From: Chromatiales bacterium | GTDB lineage: Bacteria; Pseudomonadota; Gammaproteobacteria; JAGRGH01 | Reading direction: 5' to 3' | Assembly (NCBI GenBank): GCA_020445605.1 | Contig: JAGRGH010000051.1 | Location: 1-64,000 of the forward strand | Length of the DNA stretch: 64,000 bases | Shown here: positions 4,975 to 47,745 of the stretch, piece by piece | Layout of the letters: each line of letters starts with the position of its first letter | Position numbering within the stretch: position 1 is the stretch's first letter | Notes under the pieces: model-generated | Told to the model about the DNA's origin: nothing | The model's database searches: none | What the model saw: only the letters and a program-made list of their open reading frames with translations | Position numbers and translations under genes: made by a program

Positions 4975-7900
4975 CTAGCGCGCGTGCCGGGCGCTTTTCA
5001 CCTCGCCGGAGTCCCGGCCCTGCACCCGCGCGATGCTGCCGGTGGCTTGGTCGATGCGATAACGAACATTCGCGGCGAGGTTTTCAAACCGCGAGGTCGT
5101 CCCGTTCGGCCATTCGACAATGATGCTCGCCTCGGTCGCATCCCCCAGCCCAACGTGCTGTTCCTTCGGGTGCATGGTCAGATAACCGACGCTGCCATGG
5201 ATCTCGCGCCAGCGACGCGGCCCGGCAGCGGTTTCCACGAGCACGCGCGCACCGATCGCATCGCGCGTGACACCCTGGGCCGGGTCACCTTGCAGGCTGA
5301 CCTTCAACCAATGGTGTTTTCGCGATTCGGCGTTGTTGCGATAGACGACCGCTGGTCCGGCGAAATTGTTCAGGATCATGTCGAGGTCACCGTCGTCATC
5401 CATATCCAGATACACGACCGCACGCGTGTTGCCGAGCAGATCCGCACCGCTGGCGCGCGAAGCGTTCACGAGTCGCCCGTCACGGTTTTCGTAAAACACA
5501 TTCGCATCGCGATGGCTGTCTGCGAACAGGGCCTCGCGCGTATTTCCCCGGGGATCGGAGTAGTACGGATTCTCCGCTGAATACACGGCGAAGTCGTTCA
5601 TGCCGTTTCCGACGTACAGGTCATCATCACCGTCGTTGTCGAAATCCAGAAAATCCGCGCCCCAGGCCCAGCCGGTGGCCTCAAGCCCGCGACCGATGGC
5701 ATCGGACTGTTTGTAATGCAGGGCGCCACTGGAATCGCGACCGGAGACGAACAGGTCGTTGGCCTCGATCACGCGCATCCGCGACATGGTCTTGGCATCG
5801 AATTTCATCGGCGTGTTTTCATCCGGCAGAACGTATTTCTGATCCTTGTCCATGGTGACGATGTTCGAGATGTACACGTCCGGATGCAGGTCACCGTTGA
5901 GGTCGCTCAGGCCGATGCCCATGGTGAATGACGGTTTGCCGGTGCCAATCACCGTGGAAATATCCTCGAACGTACCGTCACCACGGTTGCGATAGTAGGC
6001 GTTGACGCCGAAGTCGTTGCCGACGATCAGGTCCTGCCAGCCATCGCGGTCGATGTCGGTGTGCGACAGCGCCTGTGTCCAACCGGTGTTGTCGAGCCCG
6101 CTTCCGTCGGTCACGTTCTCGAAGCGCAGACCGCCCACGTTGCGAAACAGTCGATTGGGCAGTCCATTGTCGTTGCGGCGCGCAAGCGTGGGAATCGTGC
6201 CCTCGGTATACTGGCCGAAGTAGCCGATGTAGAGATCGAGACGTCCGTCGCGGTCATAGTCGAACGCGGTTGCCGGACCGCCGACCAGTCCCTTGCCGCC
6301 GAGCCCCGTCGTGGCCGTCACGTCCACGAAACGTGCATTGCCGACGTTGCGGTACATCCGATGGTCGTCGTCGGCATAACTGATGAAAACATCGGGCAGG
6401 CCATCGTTGTCGAAATCCGCGATGATGGGCTGACGCGGCTCTCCCGGCAGGCCGTCCTCGGGCCTGCGCCAGTCGATTCCAGCTTCGCGCGTGATGTCCT
6501 GAAAACGACCGCCACCAAGGTTGCGGAACAGGCGGTTACCGGCGCCGCCGACCAGCAGCACGTCGGGCCGGCCGTCGGCGTCGATATCCTCGGCCGCTGC
6601 GCCGGAACCACCGAACGCGGGCGGAACGGCGAGCACGGCGACTTCCTGCTTGCGGACCGAGTAGCTGCGGATCGCACGCCCCAGCCAGTCGGCAAGGCGA
6701 TGTTCAAAGACAATGCCGCTCGCGGCGGTGACATCGGAGAAATACGCGCCGACATCGCCCTCGCCGGAGGCAGGCGCGCTGACCAGCGCACTGCTCGAAT
6801 CGGCCGGCGCGGCAATGCGCGCATGCCGGTCGATGAGTGATTGAATCCGACGCAGGCTCTGATCGATGTCGTCGGCCGACAGCGCAACATGCCCCAGCTG
6901 TGCCGAGAGTTCACCGGCCACACGCAGGACCAGCACCCCGATCTGCGCAATGCTCTCGACCACGAGTTCCAGCGCAAACGGATCGGGCTCGAGCTTCGGC
7001 GCGAAGTCCGCTGCGTTGATCACGGCCTCGAGATAACGCCAGTGCAGACCGCCGTCGCGAAACGCGTCCATGTCGTAGGCCTCGAGCACAATGCGCTCCG
7101 CGCGCGACAGTCGCGGGAAAAAGATTGCGTCCTCGTACTCGTTCATCTCGTAGGGCACGAAGGCCTTGGAGTACTCGCCGATATCCTCCACCCGGATCGC
7201 GGACTCGCCGCGCGCGAGCGCACGCCGTTCGGCGCCATGCAGCAGCTGCGCGGCAATCTGGATCATGGCCTCGGTGAAACTGATCTTCAGTGCGTTGCTC
7301 TGCGCCTCATCGACCGGCCATCGGTGACGCGAGAAATACACCTGGATATTGCGCAGGAATACGGCATTGGAGACATGGTTGTATGCCTCGTAGGACGCAA
7401 ACTTTTGCGCGATGATGTTGCGGGTCATCGCGTAGTTCGGCGGTGAGACACGGTCGGTCGGCGCCGCCGGTTTTTCGGCCAGATGAACCTTGTCGCCGAA
7501 GAGGTTTTCCCACGCCGCCTGTAGCGCGCGATCGGTCAGTTGGTGGGCGCCCTGCAGACGCGCACCTAGATCGGCGGTCTGCAACACGACAAGGGTTGCA
7601 AGTTCGACATCACGCTTGAGTCGCGCGACCGCATCATCGGCGAGCGCCAGACGATCGCCATTCGCGGCAATCAGCGCATCGTGCTGCACCGCCAGCAGGG
7701 CGCGCAGGCCGTAGGCCACGGTCGCATACTGGCGATGGTCATCGGAACGGATCTCAAACCCCGGTCGGCCCGCGACGGAAACCAGAAAGCCGCCGTCCGC
7801 GCGCGGATCGACCTGCATCAGTGCGGCGGTCGCAAGATCCACATCGGCCTGTTCGATCCGCGCAGCACCATGCTCACGGGCAATCACCTCCGCACGATCG

Positions 7901-8214
7901 AGCAGATCATGCGCCAGCCGCTTCTGCATCGCCAGCTTCGCGTAGCGCGCGGCATCGGTCAGCGGCGTGCCGTACATGAAATCCTCGAGCCGCGACGCGG
8001 TGGCGTGGCACTTCGGGTCGCGCCGGTCCTCGAGCGTTCCGATTGCGCGAATCGTGTCCTGCACCTCGGAAAGCAGCCTTGTGCCGCCCGGGCCGGTCGT
8101 CGCGGGTTCCGATGCGCTCGCAGCAAACGCGACGGAAGCGAAAACGAGCACTGCGAAAGCGCCCGCCATTCTCGTACGGACGGCGATTGCAGGTTGGCTA
8201 CAAAGCAATTTCAT
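4975..8214 (-). CDS. Large secreted FG-GAP/VCBS-repeat protein with C-terminal ASPIC/UnbV domain and novel helical N-terminus
   Basis: Protein of 1079 residues with a signal peptide (about 1-35; ATG at 8214, alternative ATG at 8169). Residues about 490-960 hold FG-GAP repeats with calcium-type loops (DIDADGRPD, DFDNDGLPD, DYDRDGRLD, DIDRDGWQD, DFDNDGDDD, DMDDDGDLD), forming a beta-propeller. Residues about 985-1065 match the ASPIC/UnbV domain (IGARVLVETAAG, GYLTMHPKEQHVGLG, VEWPNG) of the CRTAC1-like group. Residues 36-485 are mainly helical and carry three related segments (see findings). Function is unknown; the family is extracellular. It is last in a run of exported-protein genes on this strand, 183 bp after the fibre gene. 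Confidence 0.85.
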   Translation of the reverse strand: MKLLCSQPAIAVRTRMAGAFAVLVFASVAFAASASEPATTGPGGTRLLSEVQDTIRAIGTLEDRRDPKCHATASRLEDFMYGTPLTDAARYAKLAMQKRLAHDLLDRAEVIAREHGAARIEQADVDLATAALMQVDPRADGGFLVSVAGRPGFEIRSDDHRQYATVAYGLRALLAVQHDALIAANGDRLALADDAVARLKRDVELATLVVLQTADLGARLQGAHQLTDRALQAAWENLFGDKVHLAEKPAAPTDRVSPPNYAMTRNIIAQKFASYEAYNHVSNAVFLRNIQVYFSRHRWPVDEAQSNALKISFTEAMIQIAAQLLHGAERRALARGESAIRVEDIGEYSKAFVPYEMNEYEDAIFFPRLSRAERIVLEAYDMDAFRDGGLHWRYLEAVINAADFAPKLEPDPFALELVVESIAQIGVLVLRVAGELSAQLGHVALSADDIDQSLRRIQSLIDRHARIAAPADSSSALVSAPASGEGDVGAYFSDVTAASGIVFEHRLADWLGRAIRSYSVRKQEVAVLAVPPAFGGSGAAAEDIDADGRPDVLLVGGAGNRLFRNLGGGRFQDITREAGIDWRRPEDGLPGEPRQPIIADFDNDGLPDVFISYADDDHRMYRNVGNARFVDVTATTGLGGKGLVGGPATAFDYDRDGRLDLYIGYFGQYTEGTIPTLARRNDNGLPNRLFRNVGGLRFENVTDGSGLDNTGWTQALSHTDIDRDGWQDLIVGNDFGVNAYYRNRGDGTFEDISTVIGTGKPSFTMGIGLSDLNGDLHPDVYISNIVTMDKDQKYVLPDENTPMKFDAKTMSRMRVIEANDLFVSGRDSSGALHYKQSDAIGRGLEATGWAWGADFLDFDNDGDDDLYVGNGMNDFAVYSAENPYYSDPRGNTREALFADSHRDANVFYENRDGRLVNASRASGADLLGNTRAVVYLDMDDDGDLDMILNNFAGPAVVYRNNAESRKHHWLKVSLQGDPAQGVTRDAIGARVLVETAAGPRRWREIHGSVGYLTMHPKEQHVGLGDATEASIIVEWPNGTTSRFENLAANVRYRIDQATGSIARVQGRDSGEVKSARHAR

Positions 8215-8397
8215 CGGCGAGAACCCAGAGTGCCGGAACTGAACAGGGTCGTTCGCGTTCCGAGGAAACTGTATGGAACCCGGCCTGCATCACGCGCCGA
8301 CAGTGGTCAAAGCGCGAACGGTCGGATGACAGGGCGGCGTGAGCAACCCGACCGGGGGGCGCAAGAGCGCGCGCCCCCGGTGCAAGCTGCGGAGGTA

Positions 8398-9678
8398 TTA
8401 CGGAGCGGAGGTGGCGATGCGCGCTTCGAGGGCGGCGAGTCGATCGAGCAGCGCCGAGAGTTCGCGATCGCGTTGCGCAAGCTGATCCTTCAGCTGTTGA
8501 AGCTCGGCGTCACGAGACTGGTCGTTGTGATGCAGCGCCTTGATCGCGGCGAGTGCAACACCGTCCGAGTCCACCGTCGAGATGTGTCGGTCATCACGGC
8601 CGACACCGAACGCGGCGTGGAAGTCCTCGGCAACCGGGCCGATATGGCGCACGCCGCGATCCGACTTGAAGCTCCAGCTCGACACGTCCATATCGGCAAC
8701 CGCAAGCAGAATCGCCTGCTCGTCGACGGGCTCGAAGCCCTCCTTGACCGCACGGCTCGAGGTCGGCGTGAACGTAACGGCAGTCACGTCGTCGTGGAAA
8801 ATCGCATCGCCGTCGGGCGTGATGAGCATCGACGTGAATTGTCCGGGCTTGTTCAGCGTGAACGTGCCGTCGCCGCCAAGCTGCATGAAGTCGCTGCCGT
8901 TGGTATCGGAAATCGACAGCGTCGCCCCGGTGATGCCGCCGACGGTATTCAGGCGGATATCCCATGTGCCTGCGTTGGTTGCGTTCGTGTTCTGCAGCCG
9001 GATTGCCGGCGCGCCCGCCGTGGCACTGGACGAGTTCAGATGAAGCAGCTGCGCCGGTGACGCCGTCGCAAGCCCGACATTACCGGTGGAATCGAGATAC
9101 ACGGTGTTGGTCGGCGTGTTCGGTTCGATCTTGAACGGCAGCTTGCTGCCGTTGGTCACATCACGCACGAAAAACACCGTTTCGTTGCCGGCGAGGTCCC
9201 AGGACTGTGGTGTAAAGCCGGACGATCCATCCTGCTCGAGGCGCAGCCCGGGACTATTGCCGTCGACCGCGTGTACGTTGAGCACCGGTGACGAGGTGCT
9301 CATGCCGATGTTTCCGCTGGAATCAATGTACAGGGCATTGTTAGGCGAGGCCGCCTCAACCGTAAACGGCGTACGGTTGCCGTCAACGTCATCAATCGAA
9401 AACTTGTTTGCGCCACCGTTCGCCGAGTCGTTGGCGGTGAGCTGCCAGTCGTTGCTCGGGAACGATCCTGAGCTCGACGTATCCTGAAACTTGATGCGCA
9501 GATTGTTTTCTTTCAGGCGAATGGTATCGAAACCGAAATTTTCGCCGTTCACGCAATCCACCCCAACGCAGGCGCTGCCGTCAACAATGAGGTCATCTAC
9601 GAACACCTGATCGGCGTGGGCGGGGGTCGTCGCGAAAACCGAGACGATGGCCGCTGTGAGAATCCTGTTTGCCTTCAT
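8398..9678 (-). CDS. Secreted fibre-like protein with S74-type intramolecular chaperone
   Basis: Protein of 426 residues. A signal peptide ending THA-HA-D (about 1-22) is followed by beta-rich repeated segments: IDSSGNIGMSTSSPVLNVHA and LDSTGNVGLATASPAQLLHL are repeats of one unit. The C-terminal 120 residues resemble the peptidase S74 / endosialidase chaperone domain (SSRAVKEGFEPVD, GVRHIGPVAEDF, DGVALAAIKAL), ending in a coiled coil (about 385-420). S74 domains drive trimerisation of phage tail fibres and cleave themselves at a Ser near the domain start. Here the protein has a Sec signal and no phage neighbours. A strong ribosome site, GGAGGG, lies 7 nt before the ATG. Confidence 0.85.
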   Translation of the reverse strand: MKANRILTAAIVSVFATTPAHADQVFVDDLIVDGSACVGVDCVNGENFGFDTIRLKENNLRIKFQDTSSSGSFPSNDWQLTANDSANGGANKFSIDDVDGNRTPFTVEAASPNNALYIDSSGNIGMSTSSPVLNVHAVDGNSPGLRLEQDGSSGFTPQSWDLAGNETVFFVRDVTNGSKLPFKIEPNTPTNTVYLDSTGNVGLATASPAQLLHLNSSSATAGAPAIRLQNTNATNAGTWDIRLNTVGGITGATLSISDTNGSDFMQLGGDGTFTLNKPGQFTSMLITPDGDAIFHDDVTAVTFTPTSSRAVKEGFEPVDEQAILLAVADMDVSSWSFKSDRGVRHIGPVAEDFHAAFGVGRDDRHISTVDSDGVALAAIKALHHNDQSRDAELQQLKDQLAQRDRELSALLDRLAALEARIATSAP

Positions 9679-26063: not shown

Positions 26064-27659
26064 ATGTTGCGTAGATTCCTGTGCCCGGCGCTTCTCGTCG
26101 GCGCGCTCCAGACCTCGGTGGTCAACGCAGTTCCAATGCTTTCGGAGGTCCTCGCGGTCGTACCGGAGCAGCATTGGGCCGTCGTGAACACCAACACCTT
26201 CCAGTCGGCCTGGCCAGCCCCGGCGCTTCGCGACTTCGAAACGGCCCGCGGCACGCCAGGTCCGCTCGCGGTGATGCAGGCGTTCAGCTCATTTGGTTGG
26301 GATACCCGGCGTCAACAGTTCTATCTCTACGGTGGCGGTCACGGCAACTACCCCGGAAACGAGATCTACATCTGGGACGCCAAGACGCTTGAGTGGCGTC
26401 GCGGTTCGCTTCCAAGCCAGGTCCAGCAGCTCGGCAGCACCTTCACCTATGTCGCAGTGGACGGCGCCGACAACGCACCAACTGCAGCGCATACTTACGA
26501 CAACAACGAGTATCTGCCGATCGCCGATCGATTCATCGTCTTCGGCGGTGCCGCATGGGACAGCGGAGGCCCCCTGCAGGACGCCGCGTTCAACCGGGTG
26601 GGCCCGTATCTATGGGACCCATCCCTGGCTGATCCGAACATGGTTGGCGGCACCACCGGCTCGCACACCAACGCCACCCCGGGCGACGGCATCCTTGGCG
26701 GCGAAATGTGGGAGAACCGCAATCTGCCCCTGCTACCGAACTATCTGAACGATCCAACGCAGTTCCGGATCGACGACTACTACTCCATTGAGGGCGCAAC
26801 GGATGTAGTCTCGCGCGATGGCCACGACCTGGTCTATCTGTCGACGCGGCACTGGCTGTGGGAATACCACATCGTCGATGTGAACGACCCAAGCCAGGAC
26901 TTCTGGCGGGTCGTGGGCAACGGCCGCATCGGCAGCAGCGGCGTGTGGGGTCAGGGGCCTGGCGCCTACGACGAGGCCAACAATCTGTTTGTGCGTATCG
27001 CGGAGCCGCGTAACAACAGCAATCGTCTATACGATTTCTATTACTTTGATCTGGAAACCCCGGGATTCAGCAACCCGGTCGTACCGTTCGAGCCGACGCT
27101 GCCTGACGGCAGTCCGCTGTTCGGCGGCGGACTGGACAGCAATTTATTCAACTTCAAGGCGCGAAGTGCATGGGGTCTGGACTACGACCCGGTCCGCGAA
27201 CAGATCGTACTGTGGGACGGCGCTGGCAACCTCTGGGCGCTTACGCCGCCGGATATGCTTGGCGCGAACGGCTGGATCGCCACACCAATCGATGTATTCG
27301 CACTTGCCGAGTTTGGCCTGCCGAATGCAAACGACAACGGCTACGAAATCAACGGGGTAACGCCAGCGGCGGATACCGGCGTTCTCGGCAAGTTCAAGTA
27401 CATTCCGGAGTTCGACATCTACCTGACCACCTACCACACGCAAACCGGCGACATCTGGATCTACAAACCGGAAGGCTGGACCCCCAACGCAGAACTGTTT
27501 CCGTTCCTGTTTGTTCCGGCCCCTGCAAGTCCGTTCCTGCTGCTGATCGGGGGAATCGGGTGGTCAATCGCGCGCGCCCGGTATTCATTCACTGTCGCCG
27601 GTCGCACATCGCCTACGAAACGTGCTTCCGGTCGCCGCTCTGTTTATCGGCACGCATGA
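26064..27659 (+). CDS. Secreted kelch/beta-propeller-like protein with a PEP-CTERM-like tail
   Basis: Protein of 531 residues; GGGGAG lies 6 nt before the ATG. Signal peptide about 1-22. The body has kelch-type repeats (FYLYGGGHGNYPGNEIYIWD, RFIVFGGAAWDSGGP, GLDYDPVREQIVLWDGAGNL). Residues about 485-515 read VPAPASPFLLLIGGIGWS then RARYS: a sorting-signal-like motif plus helix and Arg, similar in plan to the protein at 656-1198. Unusually, about 25 further residues follow the basic cluster, so the signal is not strictly terminal; a late frameshift or weaker signal is possible. Function unknown. Confidence 0.75.
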   Translation: MLRRFLCPALLVGALQTSVVNAVPMLSEVLAVVPEQHWAVVNTNTFQSAWPAPALRDFETARGTPGPLAVMQAFSSFGWDTRRQQFYLYGGGHGNYPGNEIYIWDAKTLEWRRGSLPSQVQQLGSTFTYVAVDGADNAPTAAHTYDNNEYLPIADRFIVFGGAAWDSGGPLQDAAFNRVGPYLWDPSLADPNMVGGTTGSHTNATPGDGILGGEMWENRNLPLLPNYLNDPTQFRIDDYYSIEGATDVVSRDGHDLVYLSTRHWLWEYHIVDVNDPSQDFWRVVGNGRIGSSGVWGQGPGAYDEANNLFVRIAEPRNNSNRLYDFYYFDLETPGFSNPVVPFEPTLPDGSPLFGGGLDSNLFNFKARSAWGLDYDPVREQIVLWDGAGNLWALTPPDMLGANGWIATPIDVFALAEFGLPNANDNGYEINGVTPAADTGVLGKFKYIPEFDIYLTTYHTQTGDIWIYKPEGWTPNAELFPFLFVPAPASPFLLLIGGIGWSIARARYSFTVAGRTSPTKRASGRRSVYRHA

Positions 27660-38614: not shown

Positions 38615-41239
38615 TCAGGTCAACCAGGTCATGTGCCCGGTTTCGTAGACATGGGTCAGCGAACGGTTGAACGGGAACACGCGCACGCGATAGCACAGCC
38701 GACCGCACCACTCGGGCTGCATGTCGAGCACAAAGCGCTGCTCTCCATGACTGTCCAGGCCATCGATGGGCTGGAACCGGTAGGACGCAAGGCGCTCCGG
38801 TTCGTCCTTGTGGCGGCGGCTGCGAATCGCCTCCAGCGCATTGAAGCCGCCGGCCATGCGTGACTGTGGATCCGGACGCTCGCACAGCAACAGTTCCACG
38901 GCCAGATCGTCGACCGACAGACCGTTCATCCGCACCGCGACCTCGACCCGCAGGCTCTGTTCGAATTCGATCCGGTTGACCGGTTCATGAATCTGGCGAA
39001 TGGTGACATTCGGCCAGGCCTGGTGGACTCTGCTCTTCCACTGCGCAAGCTCGCGCGCCCGTGCGTGGTTGTTCTCCGTCAGCGCACGGCCCTGACGCGC
39101 CGCGGGCTTGTAGAACCCCGTGGCGTAGTCGTTGAGCACGCGCTCCATGTTGAACCGCGGCAGGATGGTCGCCATGGATCGTTTGGCCATCGCGACCCAG
39201 CCCGGCGAGTAGCCCTGCTTGTTGCGGTCGTAGTAGAGCGGCACGACCTGGTCCTGCAACAGCTCATAGAGCGTGCGCGCGTCCTCGCGGTCGCGGCGCG
39301 ACGGGTCGTGCTCGTGCGGCGATGGCTTGATCGCCCAGCCGTTGTGTCCGTCGTAGCCCTCGGCCCACCAGCCGTCGAGCACGCTGAGGTTGATCGTGCC
39401 GTTCATCGCGGCCTTCATGCCCGAGGTGCCGCTGGCCTCCTGCGGATAGACCGGCGTGTTCAGCCATACGTCCACGCCCGGCAGCAGCCGGCGCGCGAGC
39501 CCGAGGTCGTAGCCCTCGATCAGCAGCACCTTGCCGACGAACTCCGGCATGTTCGAGATTCGATGAATGCTGCGGATCATCTCCTGGCCGGGCTGGTCCG
39601 CCGGGTGCGCCTTGCCCGCGAAGACGAACACGATCGGACGCTGTTCGTCCGAAGCGATCTGGCGGAACCAGTCCAGATCGTTGAACAGCAACGTTGCGCG
39701 CTTGTAGGTCGCAAAACGCCGCGCGAATCCGACCGTGAGTACATTCGGGTTCGCCGGATCGAGATGCTGAAGGATGCGATCCAGATGCGCCTCACTGACC
39801 TGGTTGCGCAGGTGCTGGTACATCAGCGTCTCGCGCAGCGAATACAGCATCTGCGACTTGATGGACTGGTTCACCGACCAGAACAGGTGGTCGGGAATCT
39901 CGTCGAGACGCTCCCAGAAGCCGATGTCCTTGATGTGATTGCGCCACTCGGCGCCGACGAAGCGGTCGAACAGCAGCACCCAGTCCTTGGCCAGCACGCT
40001 GGTCACGTGCACGCCGTTGGTGACGTAACGCATCGGGTTTTCATTGGTCGGCACCTGCGGCCAGCAGGGCGCGCAGATCTCGGCCGATACATCGCCATGG
40101 ATGCGGCTCACGCCGTTGTGGTGGCGCGAGGTCCGCACCGCCAGCACGGTCATATTGAAGTCTTCGCCCATGCGCGAGACATGCCCCATGCCGGTCAGAT
40201 GCGACAGATCGATGCCCATGGCGGACGCATAACGCTCGAAGTACGCGCGCATCATCGGCTCGGGAAAGTGGTCGTGTCCGGCCGGCACGGGCGTGTGGGT
40301 CGTGAACACGGTCGCGCCCGAAACGGCCTCCAGCGCGGTGTCGAAGTCCAGGCCCTGTTCGATGTATTCGCGGATGCGTTCCAGCCCCTGGAACGCGGCA
40401 TGCCCTTCGTTGACATGCCACACCGTGGGAGCGAGCCCCACCGCGCGCAGCGCGCGCACGCCGCCGATGCCCAGCACGATCTCCTGGCGCATGCGCATGT
40501 CGCGGTCGCCGCCGTAGAGCACGTGCGTGATCTCGCGGTCCTCGGGACGGTTCGCCTGCAAGTTCGTGTCGAGCAGCACGAGCTGCGCGCGACCGAGCTT
40601 CGCGCGCCACACGGCCACGCGCACATCGCGCTCGGCCATCGGCACGTCGATGTCGATCGGGTTGCCATCGGCATCGAGTGCGCGGGTCACGGGCAGGTCG
40701 GAGAAGTTCGAATCCGCGTAGTGCGCGACCTGGTTGCCCTCGCCGTCGATGGTCTGCTGAAAATAGCCCTGCCGATACAGCAGCCCCACGCCCACGAACG
40801 GCAGACACAGGTCGCTGGCGGTCTTGCAGTGATGCCCGGCCAGAATGCCCAGGCCGCCCGAGTAGATCGGGAAACTCTCGTGGAAACCGAACTCGGCGCT
40901 GAAATAGGCGACCAGATCGGGCGGGTCCATGAGGCGCTCGATTTCGGGCCCGCCGCGTTCGCCGTGATAGGTATCGAAATCCGTGACCACGCGGTTGTAG
41001 TTCGCCATGAACACCGGGTCGGCGGCCGCGTTGGCGAGCGCGCCCTCGTCGATGCAGCGCAGGAACACCTTCGGATTGTGGCCGCAGCGCCGCCACAGCT
41101 CGGGATCCAGCGGTCCGAACAGCTCGCGGGCCGAGCGGTTCCAGCTGTACCAGAGGTCCTCGGCAAGCTCGGACAGTCGCCCGAGTTCGGGCGGCACGCG
41201 CGGGTTGACCTCGAGCTGGAATCGTTTGGCGTCACTCAT
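38615..41239 (-). CDS. glgP: Alpha-glucan (glycogen/maltodextrin) phosphorylase
   Basis: Protein of 874 residues, the short bacterial/archaeal type with an N-terminal DUF3417 region (LSELAEDLWYSWNRSARELF). Phosphorylase motifs: FSAEFGFHESFPIYSGGLG, HVNEGHAAFQGLERI, TTHTPVPAGHDHFP, FARRFATYKRATLLF (phosphate-binding), and the PLP lysine in EASGTSGMKAAMNG. It releases glucose-1-phosphate from alpha-1,4-glucans. No other glycogen genes are adjacent. Confidence 0.95.
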   Translation of the reverse strand: MSDAKRFQLEVNPRVPPELGRLSELAEDLWYSWNRSARELFGPLDPELWRRCGHNPKVFLRCIDEGALANAAADPVFMANYNRVVTDFDTYHGERGGPEIERLMDPPDLVAYFSAEFGFHESFPIYSGGLGILAGHHCKTASDLCLPFVGVGLLYRQGYFQQTIDGEGNQVAHYADSNFSDLPVTRALDADGNPIDIDVPMAERDVRVAVWRAKLGRAQLVLLDTNLQANRPEDREITHVLYGGDRDMRMRQEIVLGIGGVRALRAVGLAPTVWHVNEGHAAFQGLERIREYIEQGLDFDTALEAVSGATVFTTHTPVPAGHDHFPEPMMRAYFERYASAMGIDLSHLTGMGHVSRMGEDFNMTVLAVRTSRHHNGVSRIHGDVSAEICAPCWPQVPTNENPMRYVTNGVHVTSVLAKDWVLLFDRFVGAEWRNHIKDIGFWERLDEIPDHLFWSVNQSIKSQMLYSLRETLMYQHLRNQVSEAHLDRILQHLDPANPNVLTVGFARRFATYKRATLLFNDLDWFRQIASDEQRPIVFVFAGKAHPADQPGQEMIRSIHRISNMPEFVGKVLLIEGYDLGLARRLLPGVDVWLNTPVYPQEASGTSGMKAAMNGTINLSVLDGWWAEGYDGHNGWAIKPSPHEHDPSRRDREDARTLYELLQDQVVPLYYDRNKQGYSPGWVAMAKRSMATILPRFNMERVLNDYATGFYKPAARQGRALTENNHARARELAQWKSRVHQAWPNVTIRQIHEPVNRIEFEQSLRVEVAVRMNGLSVDDLAVELLLCERPDPQSRMAGGFNALEAIRSRRHKDEPERLASYRFQPIDGLDSHGEQRFVLDMQPEWCGRLCYRVRVFPFNRSLTHVYETGHMTWLT

Positions 41240-41552: not shown

Positions 41553-42080
41553 ATGAAACATCTTTCCCATGCCCTGCTGCTCGGCGTCGCCCTGAGCGTC
41601 ACCGGCTGCGGCGACCAGAACAGTTCACAGCAGGCCGCCTCGGCCGGTGGCAGCGGCGCGTCCGGCAATACCGAGCCCTCGTCCTGGGACCGCGCCAAGA
41701 CCGCCGCCGGCGAGGCCTACGGCAAGAGCAAGGAGGCCGCTTCGGCCGCCTGGGACGCGACCAAGGAGAAGTCCGGCGAGGTCTGGGACGCCACCAAGCA
41801 GCAGTCCGCGGAGACCTGGGACAAGACCAAGACCGCGACCAGCGAGGCCTGGGACGCCACGAAACAGAAATCCGGCGAGGTCTGGGACGCCACCAAGCAG
41901 CAGACGGCCGAGTCGTGGGAGTCCACCAAGCAGGCCACCGGCGAGACCTGGGACAAGACCAAGGATGCAGCCAATCGAGTGGTTGAAGCGGGAAGCGAGG
42001 CCTATGATTCCGCCAAGGCGAAGCTGTCGACCGAAAGCGATGCCGCGGACATACCTCCCGCCAGCACCAGCGCGAACTGA
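41553..42080 (+). CDS. Lipoprotein built of tandem 11-residue tryptophan repeats (LEA-like)
   Basis: Protein of 175 residues. The signal ends LSVTGC, a lipobox. From about residue 45 it is a run of 11-residue units of the form W-D-x-T-K-x-x-S/T-x-E-x (WDATKEKSGEV, WDATKQQSAET, WDKTKTATSEA and so on), predicted to be continuous amphipathic helix like LEA/apolipoprotein repeats. At DNA level a 33 bp identical copy occurs at 41772-41804 and 41871-41903, so the array evolves by unit duplication. A related non-lipidated protein is encoded at 45320-45802. Role unknown; desiccation or envelope-stress protection is a guess from the LEA-like pattern. Confidence 0.75.
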   Translation: MKHLSHALLLGVALSVTGCGDQNSSQQAASAGGSGASGNTEPSSWDRAKTAAGEAYGKSKEAASAAWDATKEKSGEVWDATKQQSAETWDKTKTATSEAWDATKQKSGEVWDATKQQTAESWESTKQATGETWDKTKDAANRVVEAGSEAYDSAKAKLSTESDAADIPPASTSAN

Positions 42081-42147
42081 ACCCCCGGCTCAACCGGCAC
42101 CGTGAGCGGGTCCGCGCCCATGGCGTCGCCCCGCAGACCGCGCTCGC

Positions 42148-43800
42148 GTGACTGCGAGACCCACGCTTGAGTCGGGCGCCGAATGGGGCCTCGGCGAGGT
42201 CCGCCGTTTACCGGTCAGATGCCGCAGCAAGCGCCGCACTCCGGCACTCGCACTGCTTGCCTGCATCGCGCTGATGGCTGGCTGCGCCAGCGCTCCACCG
42301 GCATCCGATACCGCAATCGCGCTAGAGGGACAGTTCGACGGCATCGGCGCCACGGCGGTGCTGGATCCCAAGAGCCGATTTACGGGCAGTCCCTACGCGG
42401 ACGTCGCGCGAAGCGGCTTGTTTGCGGTGCGCGGTCTTGACGATTGCGAACTCGCCGTACTCGCCGGCGGCGAGGACTCGTTCGCGGTCCGCATGGCGGC
42501 GTTAGGCGCGGCGCAGCATTCCATCCGGATTCAGGCGCTGGTGTTCAATGGAGACGAATCGGGCTTGCGCGTCGCCGAGGTGCTGAAGCAGAAGAAGGCC
42601 GCCGGACTCGACGTACGCATCATCGTCGATGCGTTTTCCAACCCCGCCTTGCAATCGCAGTGGATGTATTTTGACCTCAAGCAGCACGGCATCGAGGTCG
42701 AGGGCTACGAGGCCATGGCACTGCAGTGGCTCAACGAGGTGCCGATCCCGAACCTCACACCCCACTACGACCCGGAACAACTCGACAAGCGCTTCCACGA
42801 AAAGCTCTGGATCATCGACGGCGAGACCGATCATGGCATCGCGGTGACGGGTGGTATGAACATCGGCAACGAATACTTTCGCGCCAATCCGGAAGACCCG
42901 GATCGCACCTGGCGTGACCAGGACGTCGTGGTCCGTGGCACAATCCTCAACGACCTCGTCGATGCCTTTGACCGCAACTTCGACTACTTCGTGGAGGTCA
43001 AGAAAAGTCGCGGCATCTTCAATACGAATCTGTACTGGGATGCGACTCGCGCGGTACTCGACGAGACCGGCATGCTACCGATCAGCTACACGACCGATCC
43101 CGCGATCGAGGCGAATGTCACACGAATGGAGGCGCGTCGACCGACGCTGGATTACCGTCCCGCAACCTGTCGCTTCCTGCAGAACCGCCCGCGGCTGAAG
43201 GAAACCTATATCCAGCAGGCCTATCTCAAACTGATTGAACGGGCCAAGCGGGAGATCCTGATCGCGAACGCGTACTTCGTACCGACCCCGACGCTCGCCC
43301 GCGCGCTGAAGGCTGCCGCCCAGCGTTGCGTGTCGGTCCGGTTGATTTCAAACAGCCCGGACACGAACGACCTTCCTGAGATCAGCCTGGTCGGACGTGG
43401 TCACTACGGCGATCTGCTGTCCGTCAATGAAACCGCGGTAGTCCAGGCGTGCGCGAACCCGGATGCGGGAATTCGTATCTGGGAGTGGGTCGGTCAGTCG
43501 CCCGACGAACCGGCGCGCAGCCAGGGCACCATGCACTCGAAGTTCGCTGTATTCGACGGCGAGCGCAGCCTAGTCGGCTCCTATAATCTCGATCCGCGAA
43601 GCGAGCGCCTGAACAGCGAATCCGCGCTCGTATTCAGGCAACCCCGATTGGCAAAACAGCTACGCGCAGCGTTTCTGGATCACGACCTGCGATTCAGCCG
43701 CGAAGTCACGCCAAAGCTCGCCGCCAGTTTCGAGGCGCCCGAGGATGTCATCCAGCGTTTCCGGAAATCCCTCGCAGAACTCTTTCGCGACGAACTGTAG
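42148..43800 (+). CDS. Phospholipase D-family lipoprotein (cardiolipin-synthase-like)
   Basis: Protein of 550 residues. The lipobox LMAGC (Cys46) follows a hydrophobic stretch. Two HKD motifs: HEKLWIID (H217, K219, D224) with GGMNIGNEYF, and MHSKFAVFD (H463) with GSYNLDPRS. The family hydrolyses or transfers phosphatidyl groups; periplasmic lipoprotein versions are common in proteobacteria. The GTG start at 42148 is the only reasonable candidate but lacks a clear ribosome site, and the 30 residues before the hydrophobic core are unusually long. Converges with the LssY_C gene, 10 bp apart. Confidence 0.85.
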   Translation: MTARPTLESGAEWGLGEVRRLPVRCRSKRRTPALALLACIALMAGCASAPPASDTAIALEGQFDGIGATAVLDPKSRFTGSPYADVARSGLFAVRGLDDCELAVLAGGEDSFAVRMAALGAAQHSIRIQALVFNGDESGLRVAEVLKQKKAAGLDVRIIVDAFSNPALQSQWMYFDLKQHGIEVEGYEAMALQWLNEVPIPNLTPHYDPEQLDKRFHEKLWIIDGETDHGIAVTGGMNIGNEYFRANPEDPDRTWRDQDVVVRGTILNDLVDAFDRNFDYFVEVKKSRGIFNTNLYWDATRAVLDETGMLPISYTTDPAIEANVTRMEARRPTLDYRPATCRFLQNRPRLKETYIQQAYLKLIERAKREILIANAYFVPTPTLARALKAAAQRCVSVRLISNSPDTNDLPEISLVGRGHYGDLLSVNETAVVQACANPDAGIRIWEWVGQSPDEPARSQGTMHSKFAVFDGERSLVGSYNLDPRSERLNSESALVFRQPRLAKQLRAAFLDHDLRFSREVTPKLAASFEAPEDVIQRFRKSLAELFRDEL

Positions 43801-43810
43801 CGCCCACGCG

Positions 43811-45184
43811 CTACCGAATATCGCGAACGTTCCCGGTCGCGGCCTCGGACTGCCCCTCCTTCACCGGCGCATCGGCCTGATCCCAGAGCAGGCTGCGTAT
43901 GGCAGCGTAGGGCACGGGGTTATTCGGAATGAACACGACCAGGCGCAGTCCATCGCTGAAATACGGATCACTCGTGAGGTTCTGCGCCGGCTGATCACGC
44001 GATGCACGTCGCGCACCCCGAATAAAGCCGAAGCGTTCGACCAATCCCTCCGCGAGGAGGCTGTGCAACACGTACTCTCGGGCAAGATCCACCTGCGGGT
44101 CGATGACGTGTGTGGTCAGGGTCGGCGATTCCGTGGTGAGCTTGACGCCGATGTCGCGGCTCACCTGCGCGATCCAGACCTGCCGACCCTCAACCAGATA
44201 CGGCGCAAGCCACAGGCGCATGTGATTGCGGCGCGAAATATCGGTGCGCGCTCTCTGTAAAGCGAAATCCTGCTTGCGGCCGAACACGTAGAGGCTGCTG
44301 ACCGGCGCGACTGGATAGGCTTCGCCCGACAGAGCGGCACCCACCAACCTTTGCACGGTTTTCAGGGAGATGCGGTGGGTGAACGACCAGCCGCTGCGCG
44401 AGAGCGCGGTCAGCACCGCCGCCGAATCACCCACGAACACAAGATTGAGCGGATCGCCGTCGCGCGTGCCGTCTTCATTCGTCACGCAGCACGGCAGGCG
44501 CTCGAGTTGCGCACGCAGCAGTTCGCCATCCAGATTCGGCAGCACCGCGCCCGCATAGGTATGCGCGGTGTCCATGCGTTCGAAGTCGAAATCACCGTCC
44601 GGGAGGGGCATCGCGAAGCCAAATCGCAGCTCGGCGAGCTCGTCGTTCCATGTGCCGCCCGGCAGACTCAGCGCGGCCTCACGATCCACCGCCGTCTCGT
44701 AGACATCCGCGCCCAGTCGTATGTCCAGATAACGCCCGCCCTCGATGCGCGGCAGGTAGATGAATCCCTCGGTAATCGTCATCGGATTCAGCAGCAGACG
44801 CATGGCTTGGTCGCGCAGGGACTGGCGCATGCGATCAAAATCCGCGGCCGGAACGTCCGGCTCCAGCAGGAGCGCGAGTTCATCCGGTGAATACAGGTCA
44901 GGATCGATCTGGTTGCGGATCAGCCAGAGGTTTCGCCAGGTGGCATTGCGCACCCGAAGCCACATCGCCTGCACGCCATGCGCGCCGAGATCCGCGCCGA
45001 ACTGGCTGCGGGCCTCGTCGTCGGTCAGGATCGTCGTCGAAACCGTGACGTCGTGCTGGGTCTGCGACTGGACCCGCGGCGAATCGCCGATCGATTCCAG
45101 CGGCACGGGCGCATACACCGTTGCGCACCCGCTGAGCAGCGCCCCTGCGGCCACCACCAGTAGTGCGTGTTTCAGATCCGGCAT
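43811..45184 (-). CDS. Lipoprotein with LssY_C domain
   Basis: Protein of 457 residues. The lipobox LLSGC is near residue 20. The first half is unassigned (LWLRVRNATWRNLWLIRNQI-type segment, then ITEGFIYLPRIEGG). The second half, about 245-405, matches the LssY C-terminal domain: LNLVFVGDSAAVLTALSRSG, PVSSLYVFGRKQDFALQRA, NHMRLWLAPYLVEGRQVW and AREYVLHSLLAEGLVERF. LssY_C proteins often accompany PAP2-type phosphatases or envelope lipid enzymes; here the neighbour is a PLD-family lipoprotein. Function unknown. Confidence 0.75.
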   Translation of the reverse strand: MPDLKHALLVVAAGALLSGCATVYAPVPLESIGDSPRVQSQTQHDVTVSTTILTDDEARSQFGADLGAHGVQAMWLRVRNATWRNLWLIRNQIDPDLYSPDELALLLEPDVPAADFDRMRQSLRDQAMRLLLNPMTITEGFIYLPRIEGGRYLDIRLGADVYETAVDREAALSLPGGTWNDELAELRFGFAMPLPDGDFDFERMDTAHTYAGAVLPNLDGELLRAQLERLPCCVTNEDGTRDGDPLNLVFVGDSAAVLTALSRSGWSFTHRISLKTVQRLVGAALSGEAYPVAPVSSLYVFGRKQDFALQRARTDISRRNHMRLWLAPYLVEGRQVWIAQVSRDIGVKLTTESPTLTTHVIDPQVDLAREYVLHSLLAEGLVERFGFIRGARRASRDQPAQNLTSDPYFSDGLRLVVFIPNNPVPYAAIRSLLWDQADAPVKEGQSEAATGNVRDIR

Positions 45185-45232
45185 ATCAACATGCGGATCA
45201 GACGGTACGCTCGACGCCAGCCAGACGCACGA

Positions 45233-45256
45233 GCAGGCACGATACGTCGTGCCTGC
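45233..45256. terminator. Hairpin between the LEA-like gene and the LssY_C gene
   Basis: GCAGGCACG-ATACGT-CGTGCCTGC is a perfect 9 bp stem. It sits downstream of the minus-strand gene ending at 45320 and upstream of the one starting at 45184. No T-tract follows, so it may be an attenuator, a factor-dependent terminator or an mRNA stabiliser. Confidence 0.45.
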
Positions 45257-45319
45257 CCCGCGGCGGTCTTCGGTCGCTGGCAGGGTATGTGCCGCGTGTC
45301 CAGCCCGGACTCATCGGCT

Positions 45320-45802
45320 TCAGTTCGACTTGTGGACCGCAGCCTTGGCCGTCTCCCACTGACGGTACGAATAGTCTCGCGCATCGTCCCAGTGTTTCTG
45401 CGACGTCTCGCGCGCCTCAGCCCAGGCCTGATGCGATTCGTCCTTCGCCTTCAGCCAAAGTTCGTGCGATTTCTCCTTCGCCGCCCGCCAGCTCTCATCG
45501 TCGGTTACCTTGTCCCAGGCGGCCTGCGACTCGCTCTTGGCGGAGCCCCACGCGGAGGCGGATTTGGCACGCGCCTTCTCCCAGACTTCCGACGAGCTCT
45601 GGCGTGCACGGTCCCAGGCGGCCTGGCTGGCATCCTTGGCGCTGTCCCATACCTCAACGGCTACGTCCTTGCCGGCGGCATAGGCTTCGGCGGTTTTCTG
45701 CTTGGCATTGTCCATCGCCGGTCCGGCCGCGACCGAACCGACCAGCGCGGCCAGCACGCCGGCCAGCAGCCAGCGCGCCGTCTGTTTCACATTTACTTTC
45801 AT
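45320..45802 (-). CDS. Exported protein with tandem 11-residue tryptophan repeats (LEA-like)
   Basis: Protein of 160 residues. Signal peptide about 1-27 (WLLAGVLAALVGSVAA-G), no lipobox Cys. The rest is 11-residue units with Trp at the first position (WDRARQSSSEV, WEKARAKSASA, WGSAKSESQAA, WLKAKDESHQA, WAEARETSQKH), with one shortened unit in the middle. Same repeat plan as the lipoprotein at 41553-42080, so the two probably share origin and function, one membrane-attached and one soluble in the periplasm. Confidence 0.75.
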   Translation of the reverse strand: MKVNVKQTARWLLAGVLAALVGSVAAGPAMDNAKQKTAEAYAAGKDVAVEVWDSAKDASQAAWDRARQSSSEVWEKARAKSASAWGSAKSESQAAWDKVTDDESWRAAKEKSHELWLKAKDESHQAWAEARETSQKHWDDARDYSYRQWETAKAAVHKSN

Positions 45803-46001: not shown

Positions 46002-46655
46002 ATGAAGACCTGGACGATCTGGATTGTGGCCGCCGCGGCGGCCTGGGCCGGCCCGGTGGCGGCCGACTGGCGTGAGGCCAGCTGCGACATCTACCCGAAG
46101 GGCGAGGATCACTCGAACAAGTCGATCCACTGCACCTTCGCGCAACGGCAGGGCTACATCACCATCACGCGTGAGGACGGCATCAGCCACGATCTCACAC
46201 CGAAGGGTGACCGGGTCGGCAACTTCCTCGACCAGGACGGCCACACGGTCTACCGCCAGAGCGGCCTCGGCGATCAGGGGGTGATCTTTCGTTTCCCCAC
46301 CGAGAGTGTGTTCGTCTACTGGAACGCCGGGCGGCTGGAACCTGCGGACCCGAGCAACCCTACGTGGCCCTTCACCACGAAGGGCTACCATGCCACCACG
46401 CTGCTGCGTTGCCGCGGTGTTGCCGATGCCGAGTTTGAACAATGTCCGGCCGGCATCCTCCGCATGGAAAACCGTCAGGCATCCGTCGTGATACAGAACC
46501 AGGCCGGTGAACAGTTCACGATCAATTTCATGACGGACTACGTCAACGCGACAAACCGCAAGGCCGAAGCCAAGCTGAACGGCGACACTTGGAGCGTAAC
46601 CATCGACGACAAGGAGATCTACGAGGTTCCGCTGGCCGCGATCGAGGGAGGCTGA
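46002..46655 (+). CDS. Periplasmic protein of unknown function
   Basis: Protein of 217 residues with a signal peptide (about 1-21, WIVAAAAAWAGPVAA-D). The mature part is beta-rich with CDIYPKGEDHSNKSIHCTF and a later Cys pair (LLRCRG, EQCPAG), possibly two disulfides. RQGYITITREDGISHDLTPK is the most conserved-looking segment. It is followed after 4 nt by the META-domain gene in the same direction, so the two are likely cotranscribed and may act together. No family named. Confidence 0.7.
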   Translation: MKTWTIWIVAAAAAWAGPVAADWREASCDIYPKGEDHSNKSIHCTFAQRQGYITITREDGISHDLTPKGDRVGNFLDQDGHTVYRQSGLGDQGVIFRFPTESVFVYWNAGRLEPADPSNPTWPFTTKGYHATTLLRCRGVADAEFEQCPAGILRMENRQASVVIQNQAGEQFTINFMTDYVNATNRKAEAKLNGDTWSVTIDDKEIYEVPLAAIEGG

Positions 46656-46659
46656 TCAG

Positions 46660-47745
46660 ATGATGCGACGGAACGCGCGGACCGTCGTGGCAACGGCACT
46701 GGCGCTGACAATTACGGCGCATGCCGCCGAACTGGACGGCACGTCCTGGCAACTGGTGAAGATCACGTCCATGGACGACCGCGTGTTCGACCCGGACGAC
46801 CCCGCGCGCTACACGCTGACACTGGATGCAGACGGTACCGCGCGCATGCTCGCCGACTGCAACCGCGGATTCGGCCCGTGGACGTCGGCGTCAGCCGAGC
46901 AGCTTCAGTTTGGCCCGGTCACATCGACCCGCGCCCTGTGTCCCCAGGCTTCCCTGTCAGAGAAGTACCTTGCGCAGTTCGAGTGGGTACGCAGCTACGT
47001 GCTGACCGACGGGCACCTGTTCCTCGCGACCATGGCCGATGGCGCGATCATTGAATTCTCACCACTCGGTGTGCCGGCGCCCGCTGCCACGGTGCTCGGC
47101 GAGGCGCTCGATTCGGCGGCTGCCGAAGAGATTCAGGCCACGATCCTCGCCCGGCTGTTCGATCGCTATGCCATGGAGCAGGGTCTCGACGCGCAGCCGC
47201 TGGAGATTGACACGCTGGTTGCTGACATCCAGCGCGACATGACCGAAAAGGGCATGACGGCGGGTGCCGACCTGACACCGGACGAACCCGCCGAGGTGGA
47301 TGTGATGCGCCGGAACATGGCGCAGGCACTGATTCGCCAGTGGAAAATCAATCGTTCGCTGTACGGGCGCTACGGCGGTCGCATCATCTACCAGCAGTTC
47401 GGCCCGGAACCCATCGATGCCTTTCGGCGCTTTCTGATGGAGCGCGAAGCGAACGGTGCGTTCGCGATCAACGATCCGGCTGTGGCGGCGCGGTTCTGGG
47501 AATACTTCACGGATGATTCAAAACACGAGATCGTGCCGGCGGGCAGTCCGGATGATGCGGATGCATTTTCGGTTCCGCCATGGCGGCAGCTCGGTAGCCG
47601 CCCGAAAAACCCAGGCTTCCATCAGCGCCGTCGAAGTTCATACGCCGCCGGCGTGAATGAGTTCGTAGTAGAGCTTCTCGAGCTCGGCTTTGTGCTGCGT
47701 CTCTTCGTTCGCAAGAAACTCGAACACCCGGCGCAGCTCGTCTGA
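46660..47745 (+). CDS. Exported META (HslJ-like) domain protein with an additional C-terminal domain
   Basis: Protein of 361 residues. Signal peptide about 1-22. Residues 23-135 are a META/HslJ domain (LDGTSWQLVKITSMDDRVF, YTLTLDADGTARMLADCNRG, STRALCPQASLSEKYL). Residues about 145-300 form a second, mainly helical domain containing IIYQQFGPEPIDAFRRFL and FWEYFTDDSKHEI. The last 36 residues are antisense to the end of the ferritin-like gene (108 bp overlap) and rich in basic and hydrophobic residues unlike the rest, so the native C-terminus is probably shorter and a recent frameshift or stop loss near 47550-47640 is possible. Confidence 0.7.
   Translation: MMRRNARTVVATALALTITAHAAELDGTSWQLVKITSMDDRVFDPDDPARYTLTLDADGTARMLADCNRGFGPWTSASAEQLQFGPVTSTRALCPQASLSEKYLAQFEWVRSYVLTDGHLFLATMADGAIIEFSPLGVPAPAATVLGEALDSAAAEEIQATILARLFDRYAMEQGLDAQPLEIDTLVADIQRDMTEKGMTAGADLTPDEPAEVDVMRRNMAQALIRQWKINRSLYGRYGGRIIYQQFGPEPIDAFRRFLMEREANGAFAINDPAVAARFWEYFTDDSKHEIVPAGSPDDADAFSVPPWRQLGSRPKNPGFHQRRRSSYAAGVNEFVVELLELGFVLRLFVRKKLEHPAQLV

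Follow-up and report, generated by a model that had tools for sequence, protein, structure and literature searches.

The locus considered here raises the question of what two tryptophan-rich repeat proteins, encoded on either side of a pair of lipoprotein genes in a Chromatiales bacterium, might do in the cell envelope, and whether they act together with these neighbors. It occupies positions 41,553 to 45,802 of a 64,000-nucleotide stretch of contig JAGRGH010000051.1 (assembly GCA_020445605.1), hereafter the window. The two proteins, W1 and W2, are members of an unnamed envelope family of exported, tryptophan (Trp)-substituted proteins resembling those of group 3 of the late embryogenesis abundant (LEA) class, found in scattered Proteobacteria. 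Their features are as follows:

41553..42080, + strand: W1, a predicted outer-membrane lipoprotein of 175 amino acids with 8 Trp and seven tandem W-first 11-mers
41598..41609, + strand: W1 lipobox VTGC, with Cys19 predicted to be lipidated and followed by Gly (from the sequence)
41682..42044, + strand: predicted single helix of W1, residues 44-164, about 18 nm if straight (AlphaFold2)
41748..41965, + strand: tandem DNA array of 33, 66 and 99 bp within W1 (Tandem Repeats Finder, TRF)
45320..45802, - strand: W2, 160 amino acids, exported without lipidation, its Trp ladder forming two arms
45488..45517, - strand: W2 hinge WDKVTDDESW, residues 96-105, the sole 9-residue Trp spacing, with a predicted turn at 98-101

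The tryptophan register and the spread of the family

An initial annotation, drawn up without database searches, had reported a pair of 11-residue Trp-repeat proteins at this locus, and the spacing of the Trp residues establishes that the pair is real: 20,000 shuffles per region gave at most four 11-residue gaps, as against six observed in W1 and eight in W2. In the helical region of W1 the spacings are 22, with a Tyr midway, and then six of 11, while those of W2 are four of 11, one of 9 and again four of 11. The same annotation described one protein as lipidated and the other as soluble; the first half stands, given the lipobox of W1, but W2, with a signal-like N-terminus and no lipobox, is better called exported and not lipidated. 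Throughout, signal peptides and lipoboxes were judged by eye or by pattern.

The helical nature ascribed to both repeats agrees with AlphaFold2 models of the two proteins. W1, modeled from a single sequence, is predicted as one 121-residue helix without a hinge (predicted local distance difference test score, pLDDT, 93-97 over residues 51-150; predicted template-modeling score, pTM, 0.43). Since each 11-mer amounts to three helical turns, Trp would fall in one narrow stripe, with Lys on one flank, Ser/Thr on the other and Glu opposite; on a helical wheel calculated from the consensus with 98.2 degrees per residue, Trp occupies the center of the narrow face, with Lys at +33 degrees, Ser at -33 and Glu on the opposite side. 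At that angle the hydrophobic moment is 0.28-0.32 in W1 and in each arm of W2 (shuffle P 0.000-0.003, 1000 shuffles), in segments with a grand average of hydropathy of -0.9 to -1.6 and a net charge of -1 to -3.

The W-x10-W repeat proved, when sought in other genomes, to be common in one order and sporadic elsewhere in the class and phylum. A search of the host's own genome with W2 (E<=0.001) recovered only W2 itself and W1. Among 369 genomes of the class, the own genome included, W2 matched 6 and the W-unit consensus 18 (both at E<=1e-6). At least three 11-residue Trp gaps were present in 7 of these 18 (the own genome, G289, G239, G152, G033, G116 and G217), one or two in five (G157, G268, G362, G263 and G356) and none in six, where the matches in G122, G195 and G347 may be in the wrong frame. 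In the phylum, the consensus matched 11 of 398 genomes, again with the own genome included (E<=1e-8): eight with at least three such gaps, the own genome among them, G418 with two, and G749 and G767 with none. Of 24 genomes from the order to which G217 belongs, 17 give a match, in every case with at least five successive Trp in register. Among the relatives listed, none belonged to the host's own genus, family or order. A profile scan of genome contigs, built on the W2 alignment, gave one confirmed locus, JAHXIV010000056.1 from a gamma proteobacterium symbiont of Taylorina, which is the G217 gene, and a plasmid tblastn search with W2 found no match at 1e-3.

Tabulating 21 of these proteins, W1 and W2 included, yields 156 gaps of 11 residues among 175 Trp-to-Trp gaps and a unit consensus of W-[DE]-[AK]-[TA]-K-[E]-x-S-x-[E]-[A]. 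The table omits the G152 protein (too few Lys for the filter), G371, G382 and a second G379 copy, which the ORF picker lost, as well as the proteins found later in G239, G397, G418, G448, G459, G469, G538, G558 and G716. Each of the 21 has a hydrophobic, signal-like start by eye, and the lipobox pattern occurs in G289 and W1, with a second G383 gene reading NSGC.

The family falls outside existing models: neither W1 nor W2 passes any Pfam or NCBIfam cut-off, and no model is convincingly common to 15 aligned members. The broadest match, NF047840, reaches 9 of the 15 at E<=0.1 (best 1.2e-4), followed by the sll1863 stress-response family (six at E<=0.1, best 4.3e-5), DivIVA/Wag31 (four, best 2.9e-4), XAC1346 (three, best 0.0015), synuclein (two, best 0.01), LEA_1 (one, 0.025) and apolipophorin-III (one, 0.12), and the family profile matches BefA (7rfq) at an E of only 0.025. 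Such weak matches are expected, as charged helices of this kind match many models. In three named plasmid records, the relatives bear the label hypothetical or uncharacterised. In the literature searched, which has most subscription journals outside its scope, the unit strings WDATKE, WDKTKE, WEATKE and WDKAKE occur in no text, and no paper on the family is among the matches listed by title or start of abstract.

Several observations extend the family's margins. A two-Trp relative occurs on enterobacterial plasmids (43 records), and of 5426 E. coli genomes 31 have near-identical DNA, always on plasmids; in one record (E. coli plasmid NZ_CP134806.1, 2663-4109) this LEA-like exported protein lies between CsbD/YqjD-like and holin/YqjK genes. 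In G397 (6852-8772) a stand-alone W-11mer gene has directly behind it a gene whose product opens with a short W-containing 11-mer stretch and continues as a long helix-rich protein. A comparable fusion is encoded in G418, both being judged by eye, and neither fused protein has a Pfam match. In G157 a short W module follows another exported domain, again by eye.

The initial annotation also saw ongoing unit duplication in the tandem 33 bp copies, which the codon tests and the TRF output sustain weakly and for W1 alone. TRF reports arrays of 6.3 x 33 bp at 69%, 3.3 x 66 bp at 69% and 2.1 x 99 bp at 81% in W1 and none at W2. Codon reuse between W1 units is 0.795, as compared with 0.533 under the background usage of six window genes (0 of 2000 draws), yet only slightly above a within-gene synonymous shuffle (0.686, P 0.037); in W2 it is 0.523, with no significant excess (P 0.098 and 0.079). 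A better case of recent duplication than the window gene is the exported protein of G239 (7740-8378), with twelve 11-residue gaps and near-identical units of the WDSTKQGASET type. The W1 array, the variable number of units and the sporadic distribution could be taken to mean that the repeats are slippage-prone, low-complexity filler with no specific role. We consider this very improbable: the W2 units keep their register although only about 0.42-0.51 identical in DNA, the hinge of W2 is kept in its five closest relatives, and the signal-like start is kept throughout the table.

The W2 hinge and the modeled hairpin

The 9-residue break in the W2 ladder, which the initial annotation overlooked, is shared with those five closest relatives, the proteins that W2 matched at more than 100 bits (in G217, G373, G374, G375 and G379). 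In all six it is the single 9-residue spacing and follows the pattern W-D-x-V-T-D-[DE]-x-[ST]-W, and it is present in none of the 15 other tabulated proteins. Leaving aside Trp11 of W2, which lies in the signal, the hinge proteins carry 5-10 Trp before the hinge and 5-6 after it. Conservation is higher past the hinge, where the mean identity per unit, Trp excluded, is 0.53-0.77, than before it, at 0.21-0.53. AlphaFold2, run on W2 with two sequences only, predicts a two-helix hairpin of residues 26-97 and 102-159 (72 and 58 residues), with block-mean pLDDT of 94-98 over residues 51-150 and pTM 0.64. Counting outward from the hinge, the five Trp of one arm mirror those of the other, the residue numbers of each pair (52/149, 63/138, 74/127, 85/116 and 96/105) adding up to 201. 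If W2 were one straight helix, the stripe would be lost: taken over its entire mature length, the moment at 98.2 degrees is 0.033.

These features could point to a structural role, in which the proteins are rigid rods and hairpins acting as envelope spacers or scaffolds in the manner of Lpp: W1, a helix of about 18 nm, would set or bridge the periplasmic distance, and W2, a Trp-zippered hairpin, would cap or bundle W1. The unbroken helix predicted for W1, the paired Trp of the predicted W2 hairpin, the loss of the stripe in a straight W2, the conserved post-hinge arm beside a pre-hinge arm of variable length, and the short modules heading helix-rich proteins in G397 and G418 would all suit such a role. 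However, a helix that AlphaFold2 draws from a single charged repeat sequence is no evidence of a stable rod, a core of one Trp with Ser/Thr would be unusual for a coiled coil, and lengths differ widely among genomes. Further, Lpp carries a C-terminal Lys, which W1 and W2 lack; the Lpp/OprI model NF040598 does not list either protein at E<=1 and is matched weakly by 1 of the 15 members (E 0.019). On balance, we hold a structural role to be rather unlikely.

We give still less weight to a more specific proposal, namely that W2 is an analog of the exchangeable apolipoproteins. It would be a closed hairpin with WDxVTD[DE]x[ST]W as its hinge and equidistant Trp pairs as its zipper; under membrane stress the hairpin would open onto lipid, with lipid-anchored W1 as the matching Trp rod for docking. 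The two would then represent a Trp-ladder family of envelope protectants, separate from LEA_4 and new to the literature searched.

The lipoprotein genes between W1 and W2

Two genes lie between W1 and W2:

42148..43800, + strand: lipoprotein of the phospholipase D (PLD) superfamily, cardiolipin-synthase-like, with two intact HKD motifs, 67 bp downstream of W1
43811..45184, - strand: LssY_C-domain lipoprotein, convergent with the PLD gene, its start 135 bp past the W2 stop

Their identification in the initial annotation is borne out. The PLD protein contains both HxKxxxxD motifs, at H217 and H463, and matches PF13091 (PLDc_2) at an E of 1.7e-35; the other matches PF14067 at 3.2e-46 (157.8 bits, against a curated cut-off of 25), and both show a lipobox pattern. 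The PLD protein, whose motif we take to be ClsC-like, scores below the NCBIfam cardiolipin synthase cut-offs (TIGR04265, 131.4 bits against 290; ClsB, 118.8 against 281; PRK12452, 81.9 against 787), and neither protein has a relative in the PDB by sequence at 0.001. A literature search on LssY_C returned unrelated papers only. According to the sorting rule for E. coli lipoproteins, Gly or Ala after the lipobox Cys points to the outer membrane; this is the case in W1, PLD and LssY_C alike, all three of which would by that rule be located there.

The genes run in two opposed directions, W1 into PLD and W2 into LssY_C, with the ends of the latter two 10 bp apart, and a carbohydrate phosphorylase gene (38615-41239, - strand, PF00343) is divergent from W1. 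This arrangement allows the interpretation of the locus as a lipid-remodeling unit of two co-transcribed pairs, in which the W proteins recruit or activate the neighboring lipoprotein enzymes on the membrane. Consistent with it, each W gene has a lipoprotein gene behind it on the same strand, the PLD protein retains both HKD motifs, and the only two terminator-like sites found at the locus lie within PLD, leaving both W-to-lipoprotein gaps free of them; on the other side, no promoter-like site was found at the locus. Codon adaptation is ordinary (W1 0.746, W2 0.707); an unusual adaptation of the pair was considered and rejected, as both values fall inside the range of the nine other window genes scored (0.49-0.78).

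Comparison across genomes speaks against such a unit. The other five hinge genomes have neither LssY_C nor a PLD resembling that of the window (query P0003, E<=1e-10), and their W2-type genes sit in other neighborhoods, among the matches listed. In a first set of 23 W loci outside the window, LssY_C is beside none and a PLD-family gene is near that of G116 only, among the matches listed, while in a second set of 17 nothing matches P0003 or the LssY_C query P0004 at 1e-3; some contigs in these sets are short. The G116 gene, about 2.1 kb from the W gene and on the other strand, is itself in conflict: phmmer gives 7e-18 against P0003, yet it is unmatched at 1e-10 in the genome search. Conversely, P0004 matches 6 of the 369 class genomes, the own genome included (E<=1e-10), and the six LssY_C loci examined contain no W gene. 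In 38 selected genomes, PF14067 and P0003 (E<=1e-10) each occur in seven. Without the own genome, two of five LssY_C genomes fall among the 17 of 368 with a consensus match (P 0.019), but these are congeneric, G152 with W and LssY_C together and G263 with LssY_C and a one-gap W match, the genes lying on different contigs; with real arrays only (at least three gaps) the overlap is one of five among 6 of 368 (P about 0.08, by hand arithmetic). A viral-contig scan with P0003 confirmed nothing.

The functional unit with PLD and LssY_C implied by the initial annotation is not supported, and the neighborhoods and hinge genomes lead us to reject obligate linkage as the general case. The two are probably local envelope-lipid genes and not obligate partners, and a role of the W proteins as helpers of lipid enzymes is, in our estimate, decidedly improbable.

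Elsewhere, W genes keep different company. In family f98 the W gene shares its neighborhood with two genes that we take from their sequences to encode decarboxylase-like and SEC-C-motif proteins, each at 10 or more loci, which indicates that the neighbors differ by lineage. In G152 (322-2566) an MscS-type mechanosensitive channel gene lies directly behind the W gene, an osmotic hint; an ion-channel gene directly precedes that of G217, and the two together are weak context in favor of the stress role proposed below. A Ysc84/SYLF lipoprotein gene is near the W-11mer gene of G538 (5585-7371). In the window itself, two more exported-looking proteins adjoin W2 (46002-47745), one without a Pfam match and one with a META domain, and a 531-amino-acid exported-looking protein without a Pfam match and with a PEP-CTERM-like tail by eye is encoded at 26064-27659.

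LEA-like character, proposed role and known systems

The LEA-like character noted at the outset finds support in the group-3 class pattern, which, in the accessible part of its source (PMC10295645), constrains nine positions of the 11-mer. The W units fit it in a single register, at 0.574 over 184 windows from the 21 proteins, as compared with 0.357 for the next register and 0.339 for the best of 300 within-unit shuffles. In that register Trp takes apolar position 2. In most windows there is agreement at six of the nine positions, Trp being one of these by construction, while apolar position 5 (0.38, mainly Thr), the second basic position 8 (0.19) and apolar position 9 fail in most.

The reading that we favor, to which we assign about an even chance, is that the W proteins are envelope-targeted, Trp-substituted, LEA-like amphipathic helices whose action on proteins or membranes, at times of osmotic or water stress, would be weak and reversible. 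The weakly amphipathic and very hydrophilic helix would lie on lipid or on an exposed apolar protein surface and then release it. Its lipid would tether W1 to the outer membrane, the W2 hairpin would be free to move in the periplasm, and together the two could cover and stabilize the envelope as osmotic shift, drying or cold lowers the water activity. Protection against desiccation or osmotic stress is here suggested by analogy. The helix properties of the W proteins resemble the weak and reversible surface binding of HeLEA1, a group-3 LEA protein which, in the part of the report available, forms helix reversibly on anionic membranes, stabilizes them and raises hyperosmotic tolerance in yeast (PMC10808001). 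BilRI of Aggregatibacter would supply the bacterial precedent for lipid anchoring of such repeats in the outer membrane, being described in the accessible text as an outer-membrane lipoprotein with eleven LEA_4-type 11-mers (PMC8096337). This likeness and this precedent lead us to favor the envelope protectant over the rod or hairpin, the lipid-enzyme helper and the filler. The 11-mers alone are stated, in the portion of the source available, to raise the desiccation survival of E. coli.

A number of observations weigh against the envelope protectant. At apolar position 9 of the group-3 pattern Ser predominates, and an apolar residue is present in only 0.08 of windows. LEA proteins are poor in Trp and bulky residues, as far as the available part of one account goes (PMC7215670), whereas Trp makes up 4.6% of W1 and 6.9% of W2. 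The LEA_4 model PF02987 is unmatched by W1 and W2 even at E<=1. For W2, its hinge and the hairpin modeled with high confidence suggest a folded protein with buried Trp, not a LEA protein that is disordered in water and becomes helical on drying or on membranes; the AlphaFold2 helices are not decisive on this point. The regions upstream of W1 and W2 share no word above chance (59 of 60 shuffles did equally well), and the genomic contexts of the family are lineage-specific, most without an adjoining stress gene among the matches listed. Searched at E<=1, the host's own genome likewise gives no match to PF02987, and the families listed at this threshold for the 15 members do not include it; in 2 of 17 genomes it matches far below its cut-off, that in G558 (E 0.30) being in the frame of the W match. 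Membership in LEA_4 is hence rejected, on the absence of PF02987 and on Trp content. By analogy, the W proteins may well function as LEA proteins do, without being classed with LEA_4.

Most known LEA-like proteins come from plants, animals and the bacterial cytoplasm. BilRI, as presented in the accessible text, is an exported exception (PMC8096337). An exported family with a Trp probe in every repeat would make the action of 11-mers on membranes, as against proteins, directly measurable by Trp fluorescence, and the W2 hinge offers a clean target for mutation.

The closest likenesses in structure are those of the W2 model to other hairpins. A Foldseek search of the PDB with W2 gave nothing at E<=0.001, with generic helical hairpins among the matches listed. 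The T7 chain 8e4g_a, the best of these, with two long helices, aligns along both arms (Z 10.6, 2.4 A over 125 residues), and phasin PhaP (5ip0) and the flounder antifreeze protein Maxi (4ke2), the latter presumably an 11-residue-periodic hairpin, are further hairpins of two long helices; identities are 3-18%, such Z values are common for long helices, and homology is not claimed. In sequence, a close named counterpart is the 'Uncharacterised protein' NCTC10006_04173 of Klebsiella aerogenes, which is exported and has five Trp at 11-residue spacing in units of the WDKTKEG type; it has neither the hinge of W2 nor the lipobox of W1, its neighbors are different, and its array is confined to the C-terminal half.

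With the group-3 LEA proteins (TAQAAKEKAXE repeats, HeLEA1, DosH) the W proteins share the 11-residue period, a helix-prone and hydrophilic composition and the same-register Lys/Glu pattern; they differ in having one Trp in each unit and Ser at an apolar position, in being exported and, in W2, in being modeled as a folded hairpin. As lipid-anchored envelope proteins of charged repeats, lipoproteins of the BilRI and Ag473 (NF047840) type are similar, although W1 and W2 score only 14.4 and 10.4 bits against the 100-bit cut-off of NF047840, and the repeats of BilRI are, in the available description, devoid of the bulky hydrophobic residues that the W repeats carry as Trp.

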